Source of the DNA: Propionivibrio sp.
GTDB lineage: Bacteria > Pseudomonadota > Gammaproteobacteria > Burkholderiales > Rhodocyclaceae
Assembly: GCA_003249625.1 (NCBI GenBank)
Contig: QKII01000321.1
Span: 1 to 12,958 of the forward strand
Direction: 5' to 3'
Length of the DNA: 12,958 bases
How positions within the stretch are numbered: the first letter of the stretch is position 1; each line of letters begins with the position of its first letter. The notes under the pieces are model-generated. The model had not been told where the DNA came from, did no database searches, and saw only the letters and a program-made list of their open reading frames with translations. This document shows positions 1,948-12,958 of the stretch, piece by piece. The position numbers and the translations under genes were made by a program.

Positions 1948-2847
1948 ATGAGTAAATTTGACTGGAACGACCTGCAGGCCTTTCTGGCCCTCGCCCGCGC
2001 CGGACGGCTTACCGTCGCCGCGCAGCAGATGGGCGTCGATCACTCGACCCTGAGCCGGCGGATCGCCGCGCTGGAGGGTGCGATGGGCGTCCCGCTGTTC
2101 GAGCGTCGCAAGGAAGGCTTCGTCCTCACCCCGGAAGGCGGACGACTGGGAGAAGACGCAATGGCTGTGGAGGCGCTGGCACTGCGCATGCGCTCACGCC
2201 TCGAAGATGAATCAGCGGGGCTCACCGGCAAGGTCAGGATCGGCACGCCGGAGGGCTTCGGCACCTACTTCCTGGCACCACGCATCGCCCGTATCAGTGA
2301 TGCTTATCCCGGACTGGAAATCGAACTGGTGGCCAATCCGCGCAACTTCAGCCTCTCCAAACGCGAGGCCGACCTGGCCGTGGGCATGGCCCCGCCGCCA
2401 GACGGCCGCGTCTATGCGCGCAAGTTGGTCGACTACGAACTGGCGCTCTACGCGTCACGGGCCTACTGTGAAAGCCACCCGCCGATCCGCTCACGCGCCG
2501 ACCTCGAGCAGCATCGCTGGGTCGGCTACGTCGAAGACCTGATGTGGACGCAGGAACTGAATTACCTGCCGCAGGTATCCGGCAACATCGCGCCGCCGCT
2601 GCACATCTCGAACGTCATCAGCCAGATGAGCGCCATCACCGGCGGGGCCGGCATCGGCGTGCTGCCGCTGTACATGGCGCGACGTGAGCCGGCGCTGGTG
2701 CGCATCCTCCCCGACGACATCCGGCTGATGCGCGCGTACTGGCTGATCACCCACGCCGACACACGCGACTTCGCCCGGATCAAGCTGATGAGCAGCTTCA
2801 TCGACGAGGAACTGGCCGCGGCAGGCAAGGAATTCTGGCAGGAGTAG
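1948..2847 (+). CDS. LysR-family transcriptional regulator (divergent from the SAF-domain oxidoreductase)
   Basis: This 299-residue protein has typical LysR length. The N-terminal winged helix-turn-helix spans about residues 5-64 (DLQAFLALARAGRLT, then STLSRRIAALE and LFERRKEGFVLTPEG). The periplasmic-binding-protein-like effector domain follows from about residue 92 (GKVRIGTPEGFG) to the end. I chose the ATG at 1948 because MSKFDWNDLQAFL matches the usual family start; the longer frame from 1828 adds 40 residues with no domain. There is no clear Shine-Dalgarno site before this ATG, only an A-rich run, and a small dyad TTGC-TTGT-GCAA overlaps the spot. LysR proteins generally regulate the divergent neighbour, here the oxidoreductase, in response to a small-molecule inducer. 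The inducer is unknown. Confidence 0.9.
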   Translation: MSKFDWNDLQAFLALARAGRLTVAAQQMGVDHSTLSRRIAALEGAMGVPLFERRKEGFVLTPEGGRLGEDAMAVEALALRMRSRLEDESAGLTGKVRIGTPEGFGTYFLAPRIARISDAYPGLEIELVANPRNFSLSKREADLAVGMAPPPDGRVYARKLVDYELALYASRAYCESHPPIRSRADLEQHRWVGYVEDLMWTQELNYLPQVSGNIAPPLHISNVISQMSAITGGAGIGVLPLYMARREPALVRILPDDIRLMRAYWLITHADTRDFARIKLMSSFIDEELAAAGKEFWQE

Positions 2848-2857
2848 AACTCACCAC

Positions 2858-2875
2858 GGGCGGTGCCTGCCGCCC
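2858..2875. terminator. Hairpin between convergent genes, possible weak bidirectional terminator
   Basis: GGGCGG (2858-2863) and CCGCCC (2870-2875) can form a 6-bp GC stem with a 6-base loop. It lies in the 34-bp gap where the LysR gene and the glutaredoxin gene converge. No T tract follows on either strand, so efficient intrinsic termination is doubtful. Confidence 0.3.
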
Positions 2876-2881
2876 TCGCCA

Positions 2882-3205
2882 TCAATCGGGCGCGGCGATG
2901 CCTTCAAGCAACTGCTTCAATTCGCCGCTCTGATACATCTCGCGCATGATGTCGCAGCCACCGATGAATTCGCCGCGGATATACAGCTGCGGGATCGTCG
3001 GCCAGTCGGAGAAAATCTTCACCCCCTCGCGGATCTCCGGCTCTTCGAGCACGTTGACGCTGAAAAACAGAGGCAAGTTGCACGCCTGCAAGATCTGCAC
3101 CGCAGTCGCCGAAAAACCGCACATCGGTGCGCGCGGGGTCCCCTTCATGTAGAGCACCACCGGGTTGTTCGTTACCTGCTCCTTGATGACTTTTTGAACA
3201 TCCAT
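2882..3205 (-). CDS. grxD: Monothiol glutaredoxin, CGFS type (Grx4/GrxD)
   Basis: This 107-residue protein has normal length for a single-domain CGFS glutaredoxin. Key features are K21 and the active site C29-GFS in KGTPRAPMCGFS (residues 21-32), the cis-Pro segment WPTIPQLY (68-75) and GGCD (82-85), all used to bind glutathione. Members bind a [2Fe-2S] cluster between two monomers and glutathione, and pass it to Fe-S apoproteins in the cytosol, often with BolA partners. The ATG at 3205 has AGAGGT just upstream and gives the family N-terminus MDVQKVIKEQ; the extended frame up to 3325 overlaps prmC and is rejected. It is the last gene of the hemA-prfA-prmC-grxD run, 31 bases after prmC. Confidence 0.93.
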   Translation of the reverse strand: MDVQKVIKEQVTNNPVVLYMKGTPRAPMCGFSATAVQILQACNLPLFFSVNVLEEPEIREGVKIFSDWPTIPQLYIRGEFIGGCDIMREMYQSGELKQLLEGIAAPD

Positions 3206-3236
3206 TCGAAACCTCTTTTTAGAAATAAACGACACA

Positions 3237-4085
3237 TCAGGCGCCTGTCCAGCGCCCGCCGCTGACCCGCTCGATGCCCGCATCGTCGCGCCACGAGGCA
3301 ACATCGACGAAGCCTGCCGCAACAAGCAATCCGCGCACTTCGACCGCCTGATCGTAGCCGTGTTCCATCAGCAGCCAACCCCCGGCCCGCAAATGCGCTG
3401 GCGCGCCCGCGACAATGCGCCGGACGCAGGCCAGGCCGTCGCCGCCGGCAACACCGTCGGTCAACGCCCCACGCGGCTCGAAAGGCAGGCCGTTCAGCAG
3501 CAGATGTGGATCGCCTTCGACGACGTACGGCGGATTGGAGACGACAAGATCGAAGTGTTCATCGCCGAGCGGAGCAAACCAGTCGCCCTCGACAAAGCGC
3601 ACCGACAGGCCATGAGCTTCCGCGTTGGCGCGCGCCAGGGCAAGCGCTTCCGTCGAAACGTCCGTAGCAGTCAGGTGGGCCTTCGGGCAACGCCTCGCCA
3701 GCGAAACCGCGACGATGCCGGAGCCGGTGCCCAGATCAACGATACACGGGCTTTCGAAAGATCGTGCCCGCTCGGCGGCCACATCGACCAGCACGCCGGT
3801 ATCCGGCCGCGGGATCAGCACCGCCGGCGTAACCCGAAACTCCAGGTCGCCGAACCAGGCACTGCCGACCAGATAGGCCAGCGGTTCGCCATCTGCACGA
3901 CGAGCAACCAGCACCTCGAATGCGGCGGCCTGCGCCGCGCTCAGCGGGCGCTCGGGATGGGCAATCAGATCGGAATGGCGACAACCGCAGACATGTTCAA
4001 GCAACAGGCGCGCGTCGAGCCGGTCGATGCGCTGCGATGCCTGCCGCCACGCCTCGCCAAGGCTTGCCCCCGCCGCCGCGGTCAT
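3237..4085 (-). CDS. prmC: Peptide chain release factor N5-glutamine methyltransferase PrmC (HemK)
   Basis: This 282-residue cytosolic enzyme transfers a methyl group from S-adenosylmethionine to the glutamine of the GGQ motif in release factors 1 and 2, which speeds peptide release. The N-terminal helical release-factor-binding part spans about residues 1-85. The methyltransferase domain has IPRPDT (91-96), the SAM loop DLGTGSG (117-123) and the catalytic NPPY (184-187). Length matches the family. The start codon overlaps the prfA stop (ATGA, 4082-4085), so the enzyme is translationally coupled to its own substrate gene, an arrangement common in proteobacteria. The older name HemK came from its position next to hemA. 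Confidence 0.95.
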
Positions 4086-5164
4086 TCCCCGTCGGCCAAT
4101 GCCGCCAGCTGTTCGGCCTGATGTTCGGTCGTCAACGCGTCGACCACTTCATCGAGATCGCCGTCCATGATCGCGTCGATCTTGTACAGCGTCAGGTTGA
4201 TGCGGTGATCGGTCACCCGTCCCTGCGGGAAGTTGTAGGTGCGGATGCGTTCGGAACGATCACCGCTGCCGATGAGGCTCTTGCGCGTCGAAGCAATCTT
4301 GGCGTGCTGCTCGCGCTCCTGCGCATCGCGAATGCGTGCAACGAGCACGGCCATGGCCTGCGCCTTGTTCTGATGCTGCGAGCGGCCGTCCTGACATTCG
4401 ACGACGATGCCGGTCGGCATGTGGGTGATGCGCACAGCGGAGTCGGTCTTGTTGATGTGCTGACCACCGGCACCGGATGCGCGGAAGGTGTCGATGCGAA
4501 TATCCGCCGGGTTGATCTGCACATCTTCCAGCTCGTCTGCTTCCGGCATCACCGCGACGGTACACGCCGATGTGTGCACGCGCCCCTGCGATTCGGTTTC
4601 CGGCACACGCTGCACGCGATGGCCGCCCGACTCGAACTTGAGTTTGGAATACACGCCGGAACCGGCAATGCGGGCGATAACTTCCTTGTATCCCCCCAGC
4701 TCCGACTCGTTGGCTGAGACCACCTCGACCTGCCAGCGCCGACGCTCTGCGTAGCGGGTGTACATGCGGAACAGGTTGCCGGCGAACAGCGCTGATTCGT
4801 CTCCACCCGTGCCGGCGCGAATTTCCAGGAAGATGTTGCGTTCGTCGTTGGCGTCTTTCGGTAGCAGCAGCTTCTGCAGTTCCAGCTCGATTTCCGGCAG
4901 GCGCTCCTTTGCCGATTTCATTTCCTCCTCGGCCAGTTCCTTCATTTCCGGATCGGCCATCATCTCCAGCGCCGAGGCGAGGTCGGCCTCGGTCTGCTGC
5001 CAGTCCTTGTACAACGCGACGACCGGACCGAGTTCGGCATGTTCGCGGGTCATCTTGCGGAACTGGTCCATATCGCGCGTCGCGTCGCCGCTGGCCAGGA
5101 TGCGGTCGAGTTCGTCGAGACGGCCGACGAGGCTCTCCAGTTTGTCACGAATGCTCTGTTTCAT
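4082..5164 (-). CDS. prfA: Peptide chain release factor 1 (RF1)
   Basis: This 360-residue protein matches the Escherichia coli length. It recognises the UAA and UAG stop codons on the ribosome and triggers hydrolysis of peptidyl-tRNA. The coiled-coil domain 1 covers about residues 1-100. The stop-codon-reading PxT motif appears as PET at 188-190 ([10 protein letters not shown]), where E. coli has PAT. The GGQ motif lies at 233-235 in [18 protein letters not shown] and contains the glutamine that PrmC methylates. The gene starts 6 bases after hemA ends and overlaps prmC by ATGA, so the three are almost certainly one operon. Identification is certain. Confidence 0.97.
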
Positions 5165-5170
5165 AATCGC

Positions 5171-6424
5171 TCAATGGGGTTCGCGGTGCAGATTGAACAG
5201 CCGGGTCACAAGCGCCGGCATTTCGCCGTGCGGACTTTCCGACTGGCTCAGTGCCTGGGTCGGGGCATGCAGGAATTTGTTGGTCAGGCGGTGCGACAAC
5301 TGTTCCAGCACAGCGGCAGGGTCATCCCCCCTGGCCAGAAGCTTCTGGGCGTGCTCGATCTCGTGTCGGCGCATCCGCTCGGCATTGTCGCGCAGCGACC
5401 GAATCAGCGGCACGCTTTCGCGCGTCTGCAGCCAGTGCAGGAAATCCTCGACACGCCCGTCAACGATCGCCTCTGCATCGACAACCGCCGACTGCCGCGA
5501 TTCGAGTCCGGATTCGACGATCTGCGCAAGATCGTCGACGGTATAAAGAAATACATCGTCGAGTTGCCCGACTTCGACTTCCACGTCACGCGGCACGGCC
5601 AGGTCGACCATGAAAATCGGGCGATGGCGTCGCGCACGGACCGCACGCTCAACCAGTCCGAGCCCGAGAATCGGCAGCTGGCTGGCAGTGCAGGAAATGA
5701 CGATATCGAATTCGGCAAGACGCCCGGCGACATCTTCGAGGCGGATTGCCGTGGCACCGAATTTCGCGGCCATCTCCCGCCCGCGATCGACCGTTCGGTT
5801 TGCGATGACGATCTGCTTTGGCCGCTGCGCTGCGAAGTGCGTCGCGCACAAGCCGATCATCTCGCCGGCGCCGATGAACAGGATGCGTTGTTCGGCGATG
5901 CTGCCGAAGATACGTTCGGCCAGATGTACCGACGCAGCCGCCATCGAGACGATGTTCGCACCAATCGCCGTGGTCGAGCGTACATCCTTGGCAACAGAGA
6001 AAGACTGCTGGAACAGCTTGTTCAGAATCGTTCCGAGGGAACCGGCTTCGCGGGCGATGCGCACCGCCTCCTTCATCTGACCGAGGATCTGCGGCTCGCC
6101 GAGCACCATCGAGTCAAGGCCGCTGGCCACGCGAAAGGCGTGCCGGACAGCAGCCCGCTCCGGGTGCGCGTAGAGATACGGCTCGATCTCGCCAAAAGGC
6201 ACCTGGCGATATTCGGCCAGCCAGCGCACCGCTGCCTGCGGATCGTCGGCCTGGCAGTAAAGCTCTGTCCGGTTGCAGGTCGACAGAATAGCCGCCTCCA
6301 TGACCCTGCCACTCCCCGACAGATCTCCCAGCGCCCGACGCAACTCCTCGGCATGGAAGGCCACCTGCTCGCGCACCGTGAGCGGCGCCGTGCGGTGGTT
6401 GATACCGAGAGTGAAAAGCGCCAT
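5171..6424 (-). CDS. hemA: Glutamyl-tRNA reductase (first step of C5 heme synthesis)
   Basis: This 417-residue enzyme reduces glutamyl-tRNA(Glu) with NADPH to glutamate-1-semialdehyde, the committed step of tetrapyrrole synthesis in bacteria using the C5 route. The catalytic cysteine is C50 in [10 protein letters not shown] (48-57). The signature [17 protein letters not shown] lies at about 102-118. The NADPH-binding loop is GAGEM (185-189) in [12 protein letters not shown], and a C-terminal helical dimerisation domain follows from about residue 310. The N-terminus [15 protein letters not shown] is canonical and fixes the start. It is the first gene of the hemA-prfA-prmC-grxD operon, with a promoter-like extended -10 located 54 bases upstream. 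Confidence 0.97.
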
Positions 6425-6477
6425 GCCGTTGATTCTGGGGAAAGTAACGAAGACCGGAGGCCCGGAGGAAGGCCGCG

Positions 6478-6504
6478 ATTATAACATTGCGACTCCCGCG
6501 CCAA
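6478..6504 (-). promoter_or_regulatory. Probable sigma-70 promoter of the hemA operon, extended -10
   Basis: On the minus strand TGTTATAAT (plus-strand 6478-6486) gives a consensus TATAAT hexamer with an upstream TGn extension. A weak -35 candidate TTGGCG (6499-6504) stands 15 bases away, shorter than ideal; the extended -10 would compensate. Transcription should begin near 6471, giving a 5' untranslated region of roughly 45-50 bases ahead of the hemA ATG. It lies in the gap between the ligase stop (6532) and hemA, where no terminator is visible, so read-through from the upstream operon is also possible. Confidence 0.7.
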
Positions 6505-6531
6505 CCCTTGCCGCGCCGTTCGCAGCGAGGC

Positions 6532-7665
6532 TCAAGCAAGCGTGCGGATGTCGCGAAAACGCGCGGCGGAATCGTGCACCACGTCATGCAGATTCCGGTG
6601 CGCATTCATGCGTTCGCGCAACCAGTCGGCGTCGGAAGGCCCCGCAACGAGAGCCTGGCGCAAGACGTCGAGCCAGCGCTGACAGCCCAGCGCCTCCGCC
6701 TCTTCCCGCAGACTGTCCAGCAGGGCATCAAGCCGTTCCCGCAGGGGGAACTGGCGCCGCCTATCAGGGCAAGAGATCTGTGCATCGAGGCCGTAGCGGC
6801 ATGCCTGAAACTTGTTGTAGCGTGCCACCAGCAACGCACGTGCGGAATCGAACGGCGGCCGCTCCCGGAGAAGAAACCGGCACAGACATTGCGCCAACGC
6901 TGCAAGCGCTGCTGCCCTGACGATGCTCAACGGCGTATCGCAGACGCGAATCTCGACAGTTCCGTATTCCGGCTTCGGCCGGACATCCCAGTACAGATCC
7001 TTGATGCTGCCAACAATGCCGCAATCGTGGAGAAATTCGTAGAGACCCAGGAAATCATTCCAGTCGCTCAGCACCGGACACTGTCCGCTGAGCGGGAAGG
7101 CCGAGACGGCATTCAGCCGCGCCGACTGGAAGAAGGAATCGACACCGTCGACATAGGGCGATGAAGCCGACAATGCGATGAAAAACGGCACGTACGGACC
7201 AAGGGCCTGCGTCAGCCAGACCGCTTCATCAGCGGAGGCACAACCGATGTGGATATGCTGCCCAAAGACGGTGAACTGCTTGGACAAATAGCCGTAGCGC
7301 TCATAGTTGGCCTTGTAGCGATCCCCCGGGGAGATCCGGCGCTCCGGCCAGGCATGGAAGGGATGGGTACCGCCGCCGCAGATGGCGATGTTGTTGCGGG
7401 CGCATTGTTCCACCAGAGCACCCCGCATGACATCGAGGTCCTCGACGATCTCATCGACCGTGTCGTGTGCCGCCGTATTGATCTCGATCATGCTCTCGGT
7501 AATTTCCAGCTTTACGTCCCCATGCGCCGGATCGAACTCAAGCACGCGCAGAAGGTCGGTCGCACCGCGCGTCAGATCGAAATCCCGTGTAGCCAGGAGC
7601 TGCAGTTCCAGTTCAACGCCAAGCGTCAGCGGTTCGCTTGATTTGAATTCCAGCCGTGCGCTCAT
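6532..7665 (-). CDS. YbdK-family carboxylate-amine ligase (glutamate-cysteine ligase type 2, GCS2)
   Basis: This 377-residue protein is close in length to E. coli YbdK (about 372). It shows GVELELQLL (16-24), the acidic metal/ATP segment of GCS2 ligases, GGGTHPF (97-103), GQHIHIG (135-141) and WDVRPKPEYGTVEIRVCDTP farther on. The family joins a carboxylate, classically the gamma-carboxyl of glutamate, to an amine using ATP. E. coli YbdK has only weak glutamate-cysteine ligase activity in vitro, so the real amine is uncertain. Its start overlaps the antiporter stop (ATGA, 7662-7665), implying coupled translation, and a gamma-glutamyl hydrolase homologue lies at the head of the same strand run. 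A dedicated gamma-glutamyl compound is a reasonable guess; glutathione is the alternative. Confidence 0.88.
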   Translation of the reverse strand: MSARLEFKSSEPLTLGVELELQLLATRDFDLTRGATDLLRVLEFDPAHGDVKLEITESMIEINTAAHDTVDEIVEDLDVMRGALVEQCARNNIAICGGGTHPFHAWPERRISPGDRYKANYERYGYLSKQFTVFGQHIHIGCASADEAVWLTQALGPYVPFFIALSASSPYVDGVDSFFQSARLNAVSAFPLSGQCPVLSDWNDFLGLYEFLHDCGIVGSIKDLYWDVRPKPEYGTVEIRVCDTPLSIVRAAALAALAQCLCRFLLRERPPFDSARALLVARYNKFQACRYGLDAQISCPDRRRQFPLRERLDALLDSLREEAEALGCQRWLDVLRQALVAGPSDADWLRERMNAHRNLHDVVHDSAARFRDIRTLA

Positions 7666-8936
7666 GCTGCACCCTCTCCTATCTTGTCCTCGATCGCTGT
7701 TTCACCCGATTTCACCAGAGCGAAGCGACATAGCACAGGGCCGGCGATATCCATGATCGCCGCGGCGAAGAACGCCAACAGCAGTGCGGAGCGACCGATC
7801 TCCGGATAAATCCGCGCAATCTCGAAGGCCATGAACACGGCTGTGGCGGATAGTGGCTGAATCCCGACCCCCAGTAGCCATCGCTTGTTCAACGGTAGTT
7901 GTCCGCCGGCAAGTGACATCGAGAAGGTCTTGGCCAACGCACGCACGATCAAGAGGCCTATCGCCTGAACCCCGGTCAGCCAGGTAAATTCGCGCCAAGG
8001 CAGCGAAGCACCGACCACGACAAAAAGGATGATCGCCAGCATCCAGTGTCCTTCCGGCAAGCTCGTGTAGCTCAACACCTTCGATTGATCGCGCAGCGAG
8101 AGCAGCACCCCCATCAGGAACAGCGTCAGGAACACGGGGACCGCCAGCATGCGGGCCACACCGACCGCCAGCAGTGCCATGGCCACCAGAACAAACACCT
8201 GCGCCAGAGAACGCTTTGGCAACAACCCGGCGATGCGCAGAGACAACTTGGTGACTGCCCAGCCAATCACGTAGGCGCCGCCACCCGCCCAAAGCGGATG
8301 GGTCAGGCTATGCGCCCAGCTCCCGCTCTGGTACGCATGCACGACGCCCAGGACGATGACGAAGACGACAAACGACGCTGCCGCGCTGAGCGAGGAATAG
8401 AGCATGACCCGTTCGGTCACCTGCCCTTGCGCGCGCGACTCCTCGATTACCAGCAGCACCACCGCGGGCGCCGACGCCATCGTCACTGCGGCGGTAGCCG
8501 CCGCCCAGGCCGGCGGCAAGCCGACCAGCAACAGGGCGAAAAGAAAAATGGCAACGAATGACACCACGATATCGCTGACAGCCCCGCGCAGGAGGTCGCG
8601 ATTGTGCGTCAGCCAGCGCAGATCAAGGCGACGTCCGGCTTCCAGCAATAGCAACCCATGTGCCGCATCCGCGAACGGCCGGAGTTGCGCCAATGTTTCA
8701 GCATTGATCCAGCCCAGCAGCGGTGGCCCGAATACCGTGCCGGCCACCACGTAGCCAAGCACGCGCGGCCATCGCCAGCGACTGCTCAGCCATTCGGCGA
8801 CCAACAGTCCCGTCACCAGCAACAGGCTGAGCAAGGCAAGCGTATCGACCTGCGAGGGGAAAGGCGGAAGAAAAAAGAGGTACCCCTGCAGCCCCGACCA
8901 CGCGTCGCGAACGGGGGAGAGTATCGATTCGATCAT
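7662..8936 (-). CDS. Cation:proton antiporter, CPA2/KefB-like membrane domain only
   Basis: This 424-residue, strongly hydrophobic protein has about 11-13 membrane helices. It carries the CPA2 signature GYVVAGTVFGPPLLG (61-75), the segment LLLLEAGRRLDL (95-106) equivalent to the usual F-x-x-G-x-E stretch, TMASAPAVVLLVIEE (152-166) and VVVGASLPW (306-314). It would exchange K+ or Na+ for H+ across the inner membrane. It ends after the last helix with a tail of about 20 residues, so it has no TrkA-N/RCK domain for nucleotide or glutathione sensing as in KefC. Where relatives have the ion-binding Asp pair, or Gln/Asn-Asp, on the helix after residue 180, this protein reads YSSLSAAASF with no acidic residue, so transport may be altered. 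It lies between a gamma-glutamyl hydrolase gene and a GCS2 ligase gene. Confidence 0.82.
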   Translation of the reverse strand: MIESILSPVRDAWSGLQGYLFFLPPFPSQVDTLALLSLLLVTGLLVAEWLSSRWRWPRVLGYVVAGTVFGPPLLGWINAETLAQLRPFADAAHGLLLLEAGRRLDLRWLTHNRDLLRGAVSDIVVSFVAIFLFALLLVGLPPAWAAATAAVTMASAPAVVLLVIEESRAQGQVTERVMLYSSLSAAASFVVFVIVLGVVHAYQSGSWAHSLTHPLWAGGGAYVIGWAVTKLSLRIAGLLPKRSLAQVFVLVAMALLAVGVARMLAVPVFLTLFLMGVLLSLRDQSKVLSYTSLPEGHWMLAIILFVVVGASLPWREFTWLTGVQAIGLLIVRALAKTFSMSLAGGQLPLNKRWLLGVGIQPLSATAVFMAFEIARIYPEIGRSALLLAFFAAAIMDIAGPVLCRFALVKSGETAIEDKIGEGAA

Positions 8937-8978
8937 GCCAGGCTGCTCCAGAAAACCAGGCGCAGCGGCTCGACGTTG

Positions 8979-9758
8979 CTAACGACGGCTACGCACAGCA
9001 CCAAGAAACTCGTCCAGAATGGGCGTGCAGTCTAGCAGGTTATCCGCGCCCGGCGGATGGAACTCCGGATGCCATTGCACGCCAAGAACATAGCTTTTTC
9101 CCTCCAGACGGACCGCCTCGACAATGCCGTCGTCCGAACTTGCCGCCTCGAGCCGCAACCCCTTCCCCAGCGTCTTGATCGCCTGATGATGAATTGAAAC
9201 CACCCGCCCGCTGTTGAGGCCCGGATAGAGCTTGGCAAACCCCGACTTTTCGTCCCAACTGATCGAATGCGAGTAGTTGTCGTAGTCGTCATGGAGATGC
9301 GACACGGCACCCGGCACATGCGTTGCAATGTCCTGGTACAGCGTGCCGCCGAGCGCGACGTTGATCAACTGCACGCCACGGCAAATTCCCAGGACGGGCT
9401 TGCCAGACTCCATGAACTCGTGCAGAAGTTCCATCTCGTATGCGTCACGCACCCGGTCGCCTACCCAGTCCGAATGCAACGGTTCCTCACCATAGCACTG
9501 CGGGCTGACATCAGCCCCCCCCTGTAGCACCAGGCCGTCCAGATACTCCGGATAGTCGCTGAGGCGGATGCTGCTGCGATGCACGATCCCGTCGCCGCTG
9601 ACCGACGGAATCATGAACACCATCACGTCGCGCGACATGACCCAATGCGCCACCGACTGTTCCAGATACTGAAGTGACTTGGACTGGATACCCTTGGCTC
9701 CCGCCTGCGGGTGATAGATTCGGGCCGAAAGGCCGATACGCAATGGACGTCTGGTCAT
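8979..9758 (-). CDS. Class I glutamine amidotransferase-like protein, gamma-glutamyl-gamma-aminobutyrate hydrolase family (peptidase C26)
   Basis: This 259-residue protein has the class I amidotransferase fold. LVLQGGADVSPQCYG (77-90) precedes the nucleophile elbow GICRG with catalytic C126, and H230 and E232 of HPE complete the triad (LGVQWHPE). SIHHQAIKTLGKGL (189-202) is typical of the PuuD-like C26 family, which hydrolyses gamma-glutamyl bonds such as gamma-glutamyl-GABA in the putrescine pathway. No other puu gene is present here. A GGGGAGGA site lies about 10 bases before the ATG. It is the first gene of the run with the antiporter (42-bp gap) and the GCS2 ligase, which makes and breaks similar bonds in principle. 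The exact substrate is not known. Confidence 0.88.
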   Translation of the reverse strand: MTRRPLRIGLSARIYHPQAGAKGIQSKSLQYLEQSVAHWVMSRDVMVFMIPSVSGDGIVHRSSIRLSDYPEYLDGLVLQGGADVSPQCYGEEPLHSDWVGDRVRDAYEMELLHEFMESGKPVLGICRGVQLINVALGGTLYQDIATHVPGAVSHLHDDYDNYSHSISWDEKSGFAKLYPGLNSGRVVSIHHQAIKTLGKGLRLEAASSDDGIVEAVRLEGKSYVLGVQWHPEFHPPGADNLLDCTPILDEFLGAVRSRR

Positions 9759-9827
9759 GATCGACAGTTCCTCCCCAACGCCTGCTGCCCCCCGGAGAAC
9801 GAGAAACGGGGAAACGGGGTACAGCCG

Positions 9828-9850
9828 AAAAAAAGGGGACCGGGTCCCCT
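9828..9850 (-). terminator. Rho-independent terminator of the GcvA-like regulator gene
   Basis: On the minus strand AGGGGAC, loop CCG and GTCCCCT form a perfect 7-bp stem (plus-strand 9834-9840 and 9844-9850), followed at once by seven T (9828-9834; the innermost A of the tract is shared with the stem). It lies about 70 bases past the stop of the LysR gene and upstream of the amidotransferase gene, so it separates the two transcription units. The amidotransferase promoter should therefore lie within roughly 9759-9827, but I see no convincing hexamers there. Confidence 0.88.
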
Positions 9851-9918
9851 CTCAAGCCCACTAACGATTAGCCAACACGTTAATCGAAGACACCGCTCCG
9901 CGCAACTCGCCCCACCGA

Positions 9919-10821
9919 TCACATCGCAGGTTCGGCGACAACCCCCACCTGTTCCTTGATCCATGCCACGAAACGCGCGACCTCGACGCGACGCGCATGC
10001 CGCTCCGGATAAACCATGAAATGCGCCTTGATGGCCAGCGACCACGCCGGATGGAACACCGGCCGCAAGCGGCCGGCCTCGATATGCTGCGAAGCGAGGC
10101 GATCGCTTTCCAGAGCGATGCCCAAGCCCTGCACAGCCGCCTCGAGCGACATCGACGCCCGGTCGAAGCGGAAGACAAAGCGCTCCGGCATTCCGATCAG
10201 ATTGCGGCTGGCGAACCAGGCCGGCCATTGGACGAGATTGACCGTAGACTGAATCAGCGGGCGCTTGAGCAGATCCGATGGCACATGAACCGGTTGCCGC
10301 GCGAGCAAGTCGGGGCTGGCAAGCGGCAGGATGTGCTCCTCGAAAATCGGCTCGACAACCAGATTCGGCCACTCCGCAACGCCGTAGCGGATGTCCACAT
10401 CGACCTGGCCAAGGGCAAAATCGGAATGCACAGGCGACGCCGAGAGCGACAGCGAAATCTCCGGATAGGCATGCACGAACCCGGCAAGACGCGGCATCAA
10501 CCACAGGCTGGCAATGCTGGTGCTGGAGTGCACGTGCAGCGTGTTGCGTGCGCCCTTGCGAATGTCGTTGGTCGCATCGCCGATGGCACCGAGTGCACCG
10601 GCAACTCGCTTCAGGTAACTCTCGCCCGCATCGCTGAGCAAGATGCCCCTTGGCGTGCGCTCGAACAGCAGGAAGCCGAGAAACTGTTCGAGCTTGGCAA
10701 TCTGATGACTGACCGCCGACGGCGTGAGGTGCAGCTCCTCCGCCGCTCTGGCAAAGCTGAGGCGCCGCGCCACAGTCTCGAAGGCCACCAGAGCTGTCAG
10801 CGGCGGAAGGTCGGATCGCAT
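9919..10821 (-). CDS. LysR-family regulator, GcvA-like
   Basis: This 300-residue protein has a winged helix-turn-helix at about residues 6-65: LPPLTALVAFETVARRLSF, then HLTPSAVSHQIAKLE and LFERTPRGILLSDAGESYL. This is the GcvA-like arrangement (LPPLNALRAFE in relatives). An effector-binding domain follows from about residue 85 (LHVHSSTSIASLWLMPRL). I prefer the ATG at 10821, giving MRSDLPPL, as in relatives. An in-frame GTG at 10848 would add nine residues (MKYFHGVPS) and has AGGTG-like sequence only at the codon itself, so it is less likely. The gene is divergent from the TIM-barrel isomerase and kinase, its likely targets, and ends at a strong terminator. The inducer is unknown. Confidence 0.9.
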   Translation of the reverse strand: MRSDLPPLTALVAFETVARRLSFARAAEELHLTPSAVSHQIAKLEQFLGFLLFERTPRGILLSDAGESYLKRVAGALGAIGDATNDIRKGARNTLHVHSSTSIASLWLMPRLAGFVHAYPEISLSLSASPVHSDFALGQVDVDIRYGVAEWPNLVVEPIFEEHILPLASPDLLARQPVHVPSDLLKRPLIQSTVNLVQWPAWFASRNLIGMPERFVFRFDRASMSLEAAVQGLGIALESDRLASQHIEAGRLRPVFHPAWSLAIKAHFMVYPERHARRVEVARFVAWIKEQVGVVAEPAM

Positions 10822-10937
10822 GCTGGGCACACCATGAAAATATTTCACCTGGCAATGAAAAAACAGAGCTTGTACTCATGAACCAAGACGAGGAATATTT
10901 TCGCCTGCACTCAGAACAGAACAACAAGCCTAGAAAC

Positions 10938-10965
10938 CGGTTCGGACAGCTTTTTTCTCGAACCG
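10938..10965. repeat. Inverted repeat CGGTTCG / CGAACCG, candidate operator
   Basis: Seven-base arms at 10938-10944 and 10959-10965 are exact reverse complements, separated by 14 bases that contain a T6 run. The centres of the arms are 21 bases apart, about two helical turns, which would place both half-sites on one DNA face. It lies in the divergent control region. Its role is inferred from position only. Confidence 0.4.
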
Positions 10966-11038
10966 ACAAAGTTAGACGCTTACAGAAAAACAGTTGAAAA
11001 ACGAGGAGAGCAAGCCGCACCCCGTGAAGCATTTTCAC

Positions 11039-11059
11039 CGCAAACGATTTTGCGTGCAA
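11039..11059. promoter_or_regulatory. Overlapping dyads around TTTGCG / TTGCGTGCAA, candidate LysR operator
   Basis: CGCAAA (11039-11044) pairs with TTTGCG (11049-11054) across CGAT, and TTGC (11050-11053) pairs with GCAA (11056-11059) across GT. They lie about 75-95 bases upstream of the leader ORF start, a reasonable activator distance. A related TTGC-TTGT-GCAA dyad lies in front of the other LysR gene (1928-1939). Confidence 0.4.
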
Positions 11060-11132
11060 TTTTTCTCATCGTAGCTCATCGCTTTCAGATCAACCAGCAA
11101 CACTTTCATTCAACGAAAAAAGGACCCGGAAA

Positions 11133-11186
11133 ATGTTACTTGCAAACCGCGCAGCAATCGTCAACGGCGGCATGCTGATCCACTGA
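11133..11186 (+). CDS. Putative 17-residue leader peptide upstream of the isomerase gene
   Basis: The ORF MLLANRAAIVNGGMLIH starts with an ATG 8 bases after AAAAAAGGA, the best ribosome binding site in this region. It stops with TGA at 11184-11186, only 2 bases before the ATG of the TIM-barrel gene (TGATCATG). The TIM gene has no Shine-Dalgarno site of its own in the preceding 20 bases, so ribosomes finishing the leader could restart there. The peptide has no run of a single amino acid, so classical attenuation is not evident. It could instead be a chance ORF, or the site could drive initiation at an unusual distance. Confidence 0.45.
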   Translation: MLLANRAAIVNGGMLIH

Positions 11187-11188
11187 TC

Positions 11189-12046
11189 ATGACTGAACGC
11201 ATCATTTCGTTTTCTGGGGCACCGTACGACGGCTACACTTTCCCGCAGATTCTGGAAAGCCTGGCGTCGTGCGACGTCACGCACGTGGAACCTGCGTTCA
11301 TCGTCGGCTACACGGGTGCGTTCGACGAGTCCGCCTTCACCCCCGCACAGGCCCGCCAGTACATTTCCTGGCTGGAAGCCAGCGGCCTCGGCTGTTACGC
11401 CTTCTCCTCGCACATCGACCTCGGCCGCGAAGACGCCGTCGACGTCTTCAAGGGGCGCATGGACTTCGCCGCCGCCCTCGGCGCCAAGGTGATCAACACC
11501 AACGCCGCCGCGCGTGCCTGGAGCGACCGCTTCTTCCGCAACATCGAACCGATCGTTCGTCACGCCGAGCAACTGGGTCTCGTCATCGGCCTGGAGAACC
11601 CCGGCGATGGCAGCGACAACCTGATCAATACCGCCGCCGACGGCATCGCCCTGCTCGACAAACTCGGATGCCCCAACCTGCGGCTCAACTACGACGCAGC
11701 CAACACCATCTCGCACCGCCCGCCCGGCAAGCCCGGCGGCGTGATCCCCGCGGATGACGCGCTGCTCGCCATGCCCTACTGCGGTCACGTGCACATCAAG
11801 GACGCCAAGGTCACCCCGGAAGGCTACTTCTTCACCCCGCTCGGCGAAGGCGATATCGACTGCGCCCGCATCGTGCAGGCCCTGGCCAAGACCGACATCA
11901 ACCTCGCGGTCGAACTGCCGTTGCGCCTCCACCGTATGGCCAACTCGCAGCCCAAGCGGCGCGAGGAGCCTGTACCGCTGGCCGAGATCGAAACCGTCGT
12001 CCGCGCCTCGCTGGCTTTCGTCAAGCATCACCTGGCCAACGCCTGA
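11189..12046 (+). CDS. Sugar phosphate isomerase/epimerase-like TIM-barrel protein (AP-endonuclease-2 / xylose isomerase-like fold)
   Basis: This 285-residue cytosolic protein shows the metal-binding tetrad of the xylose-isomerase-like TIM-barrel family: E136 in GLENPGDG, D169 in NYDAAN, H202 in HVHIKDAK and E242 in AVELPLR, each at the end of a predicted beta strand. Family members isomerise or epimerise ketoses, hydroxypyruvate, inosose or related compounds using a divalent metal. MTERIISFSGAPYDGYTF fits the start; upstream the frame stays open but has no ATG. No Shine-Dalgarno site stands before it, and a 17-codon leader ORF ends 2 bases away. The kinase gene follows 29 bases downstream, so isomerisation and phosphorylation of a short-chain ketose are likely linked. 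The exact substrate is unknown. Confidence 0.85.
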   Translation: MTERIISFSGAPYDGYTFPQILESLASCDVTHVEPAFIVGYTGAFDESAFTPAQARQYISWLEASGLGCYAFSSHIDLGREDAVDVFKGRMDFAAALGAKVINTNAAARAWSDRFFRNIEPIVRHAEQLGLVIGLENPGDGSDNLINTAADGIALLDKLGCPNLRLNYDAANTISHRPPGKPGGVIPADDALLAMPYCGHVHIKDAKVTPEGYFFTPLGEGDIDCARIVQALAKTDINLAVELPLRLHRMANSQPKRREEPVPLAEIETVVRASLAFVKHHLANA

Positions 12047-12075
12047 TATCAACCCTCATTGTTATTGGAGTCCGT

Positions 12076-12958
12076 ATGAACCGCGTCATCAACAATCCGG
12101 ATCTCGTTGTCGAAGACATGCTGGTGGGCATTCTTGCTGCCCATCCGGAACTGGCGGCGGCCGAAGGCAACCCCCGCGTGATCAAGCGTGCCTGCGCCCC
12201 GGTCGCCGGCAAGGTCGGCCCTGCGCCCCGGTCGCCGGCAAGGTCGGCATCGTCACCGGCGGCGGCTCGGGCCATGAACCGGCCTTCCTCGGCTACGTCG
12301 GCGAGAACATGGTCGACGCCGTCGCCGTCGGCGAAATCTTCTCCTCGCCCACCGCCAAGAGCTTCTTCGACGCCATGAAGGCCGCCGACGGCGGCCAGGG
12401 CGTCGCCTGCCTGTACGGCAACTACGCCGGCGACAACATGAACGTCAAGATGGCCATCAAGATGGCCGAGCGCGCCGGCATCCCGGTCAAGACCGTCGTC
12501 GCCAACGACGACGTGCCGTCCGCCCCGAAGGGTGACGAAGCCAAACGCCGCGGTGTTGCCGGTGAGATCCTCATGTGGAAGACGGCCTCGGCCTGCGCCG
12601 CGCAGGGCGGCTCGCTCGACGAGGTGATCGCCGTCGCCCAGAAAACGATCGACAACACCCGCAGCATCGGTATCGGCCTGACCTCCTGCATCATCCCGGC
12701 GGTCGGACACGCCAACTTCCATATCGAAGACGGCAAGATGGAAGTCGGCATCGGCCACCACGGCGAACCGGGGATCAACGTCACCGACATTGTCCCCGCC
12801 GATCAGATGGCCAGGATCATGGTCGACACCGTCCTGCCCGACCTGCCGTTTGCCCAGGGTGACCGCGTCGCCGTGCTGATCTCCGGTCTCGGCGCCACCC
12901 CGGTGATGGAGCAGTACATCCTCTACGCCAGTGTGGCGAAGTACCTCGGCGAAGCCGG
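12076..12958 (+). pseudogene. dhaK: DhaK-type dihydroxyacetone/ketose kinase, frameshifted by a 29-bp tandem duplication and cut by the window end
   Basis: A good start (ATG after GGAGTCCGT) gives MNRVINNPDLVVEDMLVGIL, the usual DhaK N-terminus. After RACAPVAGKVG an exact 29-bp duplication shifts the frame, and translation ends at 12376-12378 after 100 residues of junk. From 12246 a different frame continues open to the window end with GIVTGGGSGHEPAFLGYVG, GNYAGDNMN, VVANDDVPSAP and GIGHHGEPG. The last aligns with the loop holding the histidine that binds the ketose covalently in DhaK. Deleting one copy fuses the two parts seamlessly. The intact product would phosphorylate dihydroxyacetone or a four-carbon ketose. 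Whether it is an ATP-type fusion with a DhaL domain or a PTS-type subunit lies beyond the window. Real mutation versus assembly error cannot be told apart here. Confidence 0.88.
12191..12248 (+). repeat. Exact 29-bp tandem duplication inside the kinase gene
   Basis: Bases 12191-12219 and 12220-12248 are identical, beginning CCTGCGCCCC and ending AAGGTCGGC. Identity stops exactly at the borders on both sides. Because 29 is not a multiple of three, the copy shifts the reading frame of the DhaK-type gene. Direct repeats of this size are typical of replication slippage, and loss of one copy would restore the frame. Confidence 0.97.

Follow-up and report, generated by a model that had tools for sequence, protein, structure and literature searches.

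The DhaK-type gene at the 3′ end of the window, by which we mean the whole 12,958-nt stretch of DNA analysed here, is interrupted by a perfect 29-bp tandem duplication that shifts its reading frame. Judging from the form of the duplication, its absence from relatives and the place where a contig of the sister genome ends, the second copy is probably an artefact of assembly (or of sequencing). A real and recent duplication, giving a null allele of the gene, is the main rival.

The duplication and the broken dhaK frame

Tandem Repeats Finder describes positions 12191-12248 as a perfect repeat with a period of 29, 2.0 copies, 100% matches and a score of 116. The first copy of the unit occupies 12191..12219 on the plus strand and the second, identical to it and missing in all six aligned relatives, 12220..12248 on the same strand. 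No other tandem repeat of the window scores highly: its six remaining arrays lie between 31 and 46. From base composition about 3e-13 such repeats would be expected for a period of 29 and about 8e-11 for any period of 12-300, and a chance origin is excluded. A scan of 1.13 Mb, comprising the window and the partly overlapping loci fetched from relatives, revealed further perfect tandem duplications with a period of at least 20 only inside one array of 7-base units (loci L087 and L138, which overlap each other). There is zero microhomology at the edges of the 29-bp copies. A DNA hairpin was rejected as a cause since the 121-nt stretch at the site folds no better than shuffled sequence (z +1.04; 176/200 shuffles fold equally well or better). 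Further downstream in the dhaK frame, a 12-bp near-double repeat (1.9 copies, 12445-12467) fits the peptide MAIKMAE.

The broken frame runs from an ATG at 12076 to a stop codon ending at 12378 (12076..12378, plus strand), and its 100-aa product consists of DhaK residues 1-48 followed by out-of-frame residues. Residues 1-48 match positions 1-48 of TIGR02363 (E 1.9e-6, score 27.2), far under the curated cut-off of this family because they are only a fragment. The remaining coding sequence (12240..12956, plus strand) lies in another frame that is open to the window end. From 12240 onwards its 239 stop-free residues match the Dak1 domain PF02733, the domain by which a DhaK kinase subunit is recognized, with an E value of 5.4e-90 and 301.9 bits vs a cut-off of 31.4. 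The original prediction had described two perfect 29-bp copies that break a DhaK-type frame after about 48 codons, with DhaK-like sequence beyond them open to the window end, and both statements are confirmed. We also considered a translational restart past the repeat. The first in-frame ATG, GTG or TTG is the ATG at 12309, downstream of the conserved GGGSGHEP stretch (12258-12281); a restart there would lose this stretch and was rejected.

The repeat site in the sister genome and in other relatives

Positions 1-2846 (90.0% nucleotide identity) and 2881-12216 (85.6%) of the window align colinearly with a single contig of the sister genome G268. Colinearity is broken only between them (window 2846-2881 vs 4186-4326 of locus L109), in an intergenic region where the sister contig has about 100 bp more. 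This contig, C20, is 13,680 bp long and ends at the counterpart of window position 12216 (12216..12216, plus strand), inside the repeat unit and 3 bp short of the end of the first copy. An independent assembly thus stops at the same place. If G268 consists of 60-100 contigs and 3.8 Mb (it has at least 60 contig numbers), a given 58-bp stretch would contain a contig end with a probability of about 0.2-0.3%, a post hoc estimate. A search of G268 for the rest of the C20 dhaK did not find it: the DhaK matches left in this genome are a different copy at 81% amino acid identity and another at 40%, and the 3′ DNA matches only the two contigs that carry these. A long exact repeat of the C20 end was not found elsewhere in G268 either, the contig end matching well only itself. 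The 29-mers at 12180-12300 are shared with at most 4/83 loci, while the peak for the gene (17/83) lies near 12417. A tangle of shared k-mers was accordingly rejected as the cause of the break, as the repeat site is not where shared k-mers peak. Neither shared k-mers nor a long exact repeat in G268 would thus account for assembly breaks at this position, which counts against an artefact.

The 11 genes upstream show no net frameshift against G268, all gaps being multiples of three, cancelling within a few bases or lying at gene edges. The claim that the window contains no other decay is borne out for these genes. Their clean sequence speaks against a generally error-rich window, and fits one bad join and one recent mutation equally.

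From 575 relatives, the analysis retained 80 loci selected for their resemblance to the 3′ part of the gene, and 79 of these could be anchored on the conserved glycine-rich motif (L042 lacks the anchor). The same frame is open for at least 45 codons upstream of the motif, across the repeat site, in 79/79 anchored loci. DNA alignment shows one 29-bp copy missing in each of six relatives, the end of the G268 contig included; all six are single-copy and none carries at this site a conserved repeat tract of the kind found in phase-variable loci. The duplication junction, searched with up to one mismatch, occurs in 0/28 genomes of the sister's genus, with a pattern that is specific to local codons and a region that is matched at all in only 10/28 of them. 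A comparison of this gene in sister strains had been proposed, and the relatives compared here yielded no two-copy allele; neither the 28 genomes nor the 79 anchored loci include a genome of the same species.

At the protein level, the duplication is absent from 23/23 examined homologues of the 100-aa broken product (24 were found and P0143 was left out). P0001-P0008, which share 93-95% identity with the 3′ part and are its closest homologues, have the full length of 332 residues. A protein search for an intact allele from the same species did not find one, the best hits reaching 94-95% for the 3′ part and 95% for the isomerase encoded upstream, and same-species members may be hidden because the protein database lists 90% clusters. 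Plasmid searches returned distant matches only, none of which spanned as much as 80% of the query. Several database homologues, among them P0121, P0125, P0126 and P0128, have frames that are broken or cut short near the N-terminus at differing points, some of them lying on 8- to 18-kb contigs; these may be errors or pseudogenes.

Origin of the second copy

An assembly artefact would arise as follows. The window presumably derives from a short-read or metagenome assembly, in which two contigs or graph pieces overlapping by the 29-bp unit would have been joined end to end at this position. If the overlap was left unmerged, the 29 bp would be written twice, and this would shift the dhaK frame. 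Exactly two perfect copies with zero microhomology at their edges are the form that an unmerged overlap leaves behind, and the end of the sister contig within the same unit points in the same direction. So do the single copy in the six aligned relatives, the open frame in all anchored loci, the lack of any further net frameshift in 11 genes of the window and the position of an out-of-frame break within an otherwise conserved enzyme gene. The length of the unit, 29, matches one of the default k values of MEGAHIT. Against an artefact it can be said that a real duplication may take the same form. Errors of this type are described for metagenome assemblies in PMC7111523: scaffold joins made despite an overlap leave duplicate sequence that has to be removed, and contigs often overlap by n or n-1 at a k-mer size of n. 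The likeness extends to duplicate sequence at the join of overlapping pieces and to the incorrect protein-coding genes that result. The joins described there contain inserted Ns, however, whereas the window has none at the site, which also counts against an artefact. False duplications reported in vertebrate assemblies (PMC9516828) bear only loosely on the present case.

A real 29-bp tandem duplication is a lesser but serious possibility. It would be a spontaneous null allele of dhaK, arisen recently by chance or under relaxed selection and not yet followed by decay, and both the perfect copies and the absence of further damage fit such an event. Since several DhaK-like genes are present in relatives (four each in G001, G109 and G239, six in G002), the loss of one might be tolerated. 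Several database homologues are likewise broken, at other points, though possibly they are errors too. Slippage duplications usually begin from short repeats, however, and zero microhomology at the edges does not fit such an origin. In addition, the end of the sister contig at the same place would have to be a coincidence, and the junction recurs neither in the genomes of the sister's genus nor in the examined homologues.

The original prediction had named a very recent event, an artefact and a reversible slippage switch as possible explanations, stressing the last in its title. The recent event and the artefact stand, with the artefact favoured, while the switch found no support. In such a switch, slippage or recombination would take the locus back and forth between one and two copies, with the kinase subunit turned on or off accordingly. 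Perfect tandem copies could in principle collapse to one and restore the frame, and a mixed population could also break assemblies here, but we consider this reading very unlikely. The relatives have no repeat that could seed the change and no second two-copy lineage appeared among the six aligned sequences, the 28 genomes or the 79 loci; there is neither edge homology of the kind used by slippage nor an unusual fold at the site, and no regulatory gain would call for a switchable catabolic kinase subunit. Contingency genes do not typically encode subunits of catabolic enzymes. In the capsule genes of pneumococci, spontaneous tandem duplications reportedly cause phase variation. In both cases a short perfect tandem duplication within a reading frame destroys function and could in principle be undone by collapse. 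In the pneumococcal case, however, switching was observed and a surface structure is concerned, in contrast to a single sequence and a catabolic enzyme subunit here. Still less credible is a duplication hot spot in the genus, with one- and two-copy dhaK alleles coexisting, breaking the frame here and the assembly in the sister, and switching the pathway off and on. Least probable of all is a chimera joining the 5′ part of one dhaK to the 3′ part of another, from paralogues or from different species. The presence of several dhaK copies in related genomes and the missing 3′ part in G268 would be compatible with it. Yet among six complete genes that of G239 is the closest match to either half (79.1% of 115 bp before the repeat and 87.0% of 708 bp after it), and for this reason a chimera is not favoured. 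In P0001-P0008, the nearest proteins to the 3′ part, the N-terminus is similar as well, with agreement at 40 to 44 of 48 residues.

The consequences depend on which of these explanations holds. If the second copy is an artefact, as we favour, it is a warning that one unmerged overlap is enough to give a conserved enzyme gene the appearance of being switched off, and that databases of truncated proteins take in such records. A real duplication would amount to one ordinary null allele in a catabolic gene. The case would have implications for reversible switching of metabolism in environmental bacteria only if the alleles were shown to interconvert.

The DhaK-type gene and its neighbourhood

On the evidence of its domain matches, the broken gene is of the DhaK type and encodes a DhaK (Dak1) subunit. 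Against the equivalog model TIGR02363, which has a cut-off of 406.25, the two parts in the window score 27.2 and 258.2 and the intact homologue P0001 347.9. Since even the intact homologue remains under the cut-off, the substrate is not settled. The upstream neighbour (11189..12046, plus strand) encodes an intact sugar phosphate isomerase/epimerase-like protein (PF01261). In the relatives L111 and L112 a separate DhaL gene (Dak2, PF02734) adjoins and follows the DhaK gene, a position that would fall past the window end here. The order of the genes points to a possible operon for the catabolism of a sugar or polyol. The PF02733 domain and the adjoining DhaL gene in relatives are shared with DhaK/DhaL-type dihydroxyacetone-like kinases, whereas the isomerase neighbour and the score of P0001 below the family cut-off set the present gene apart. 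It had been proposed that, if the duplication is real, the strain would make isomerase but no active kinase. The isomerase is indeed intact and the kinase subunit broken, but the second half of this claim is too broad: only the DhaK subunit is affected, DhaL is a separate gene in relatives and the four related genomes searched have further DhaK-like genes.

The prfA-hemA neighbourhood carries dhaK in several related genomes, with differing types of the gene (window 4082-6424 and 12076-12958; contigs C40 of G001, C2 of G109 and C80 of G002). Near prfA-hemA, G002 has an isomerase gene and dhaK as in the window; in G001 and G109 the dhaK copy present there, within about 5 to 6 kb, is a more distant one. 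At the other end of the window, the minus-strand gene at 174-1526 combines a DRL catalytic domain (PF21135) with a weak match to the SAF domain (PF08666) and has no NCBIfam name.
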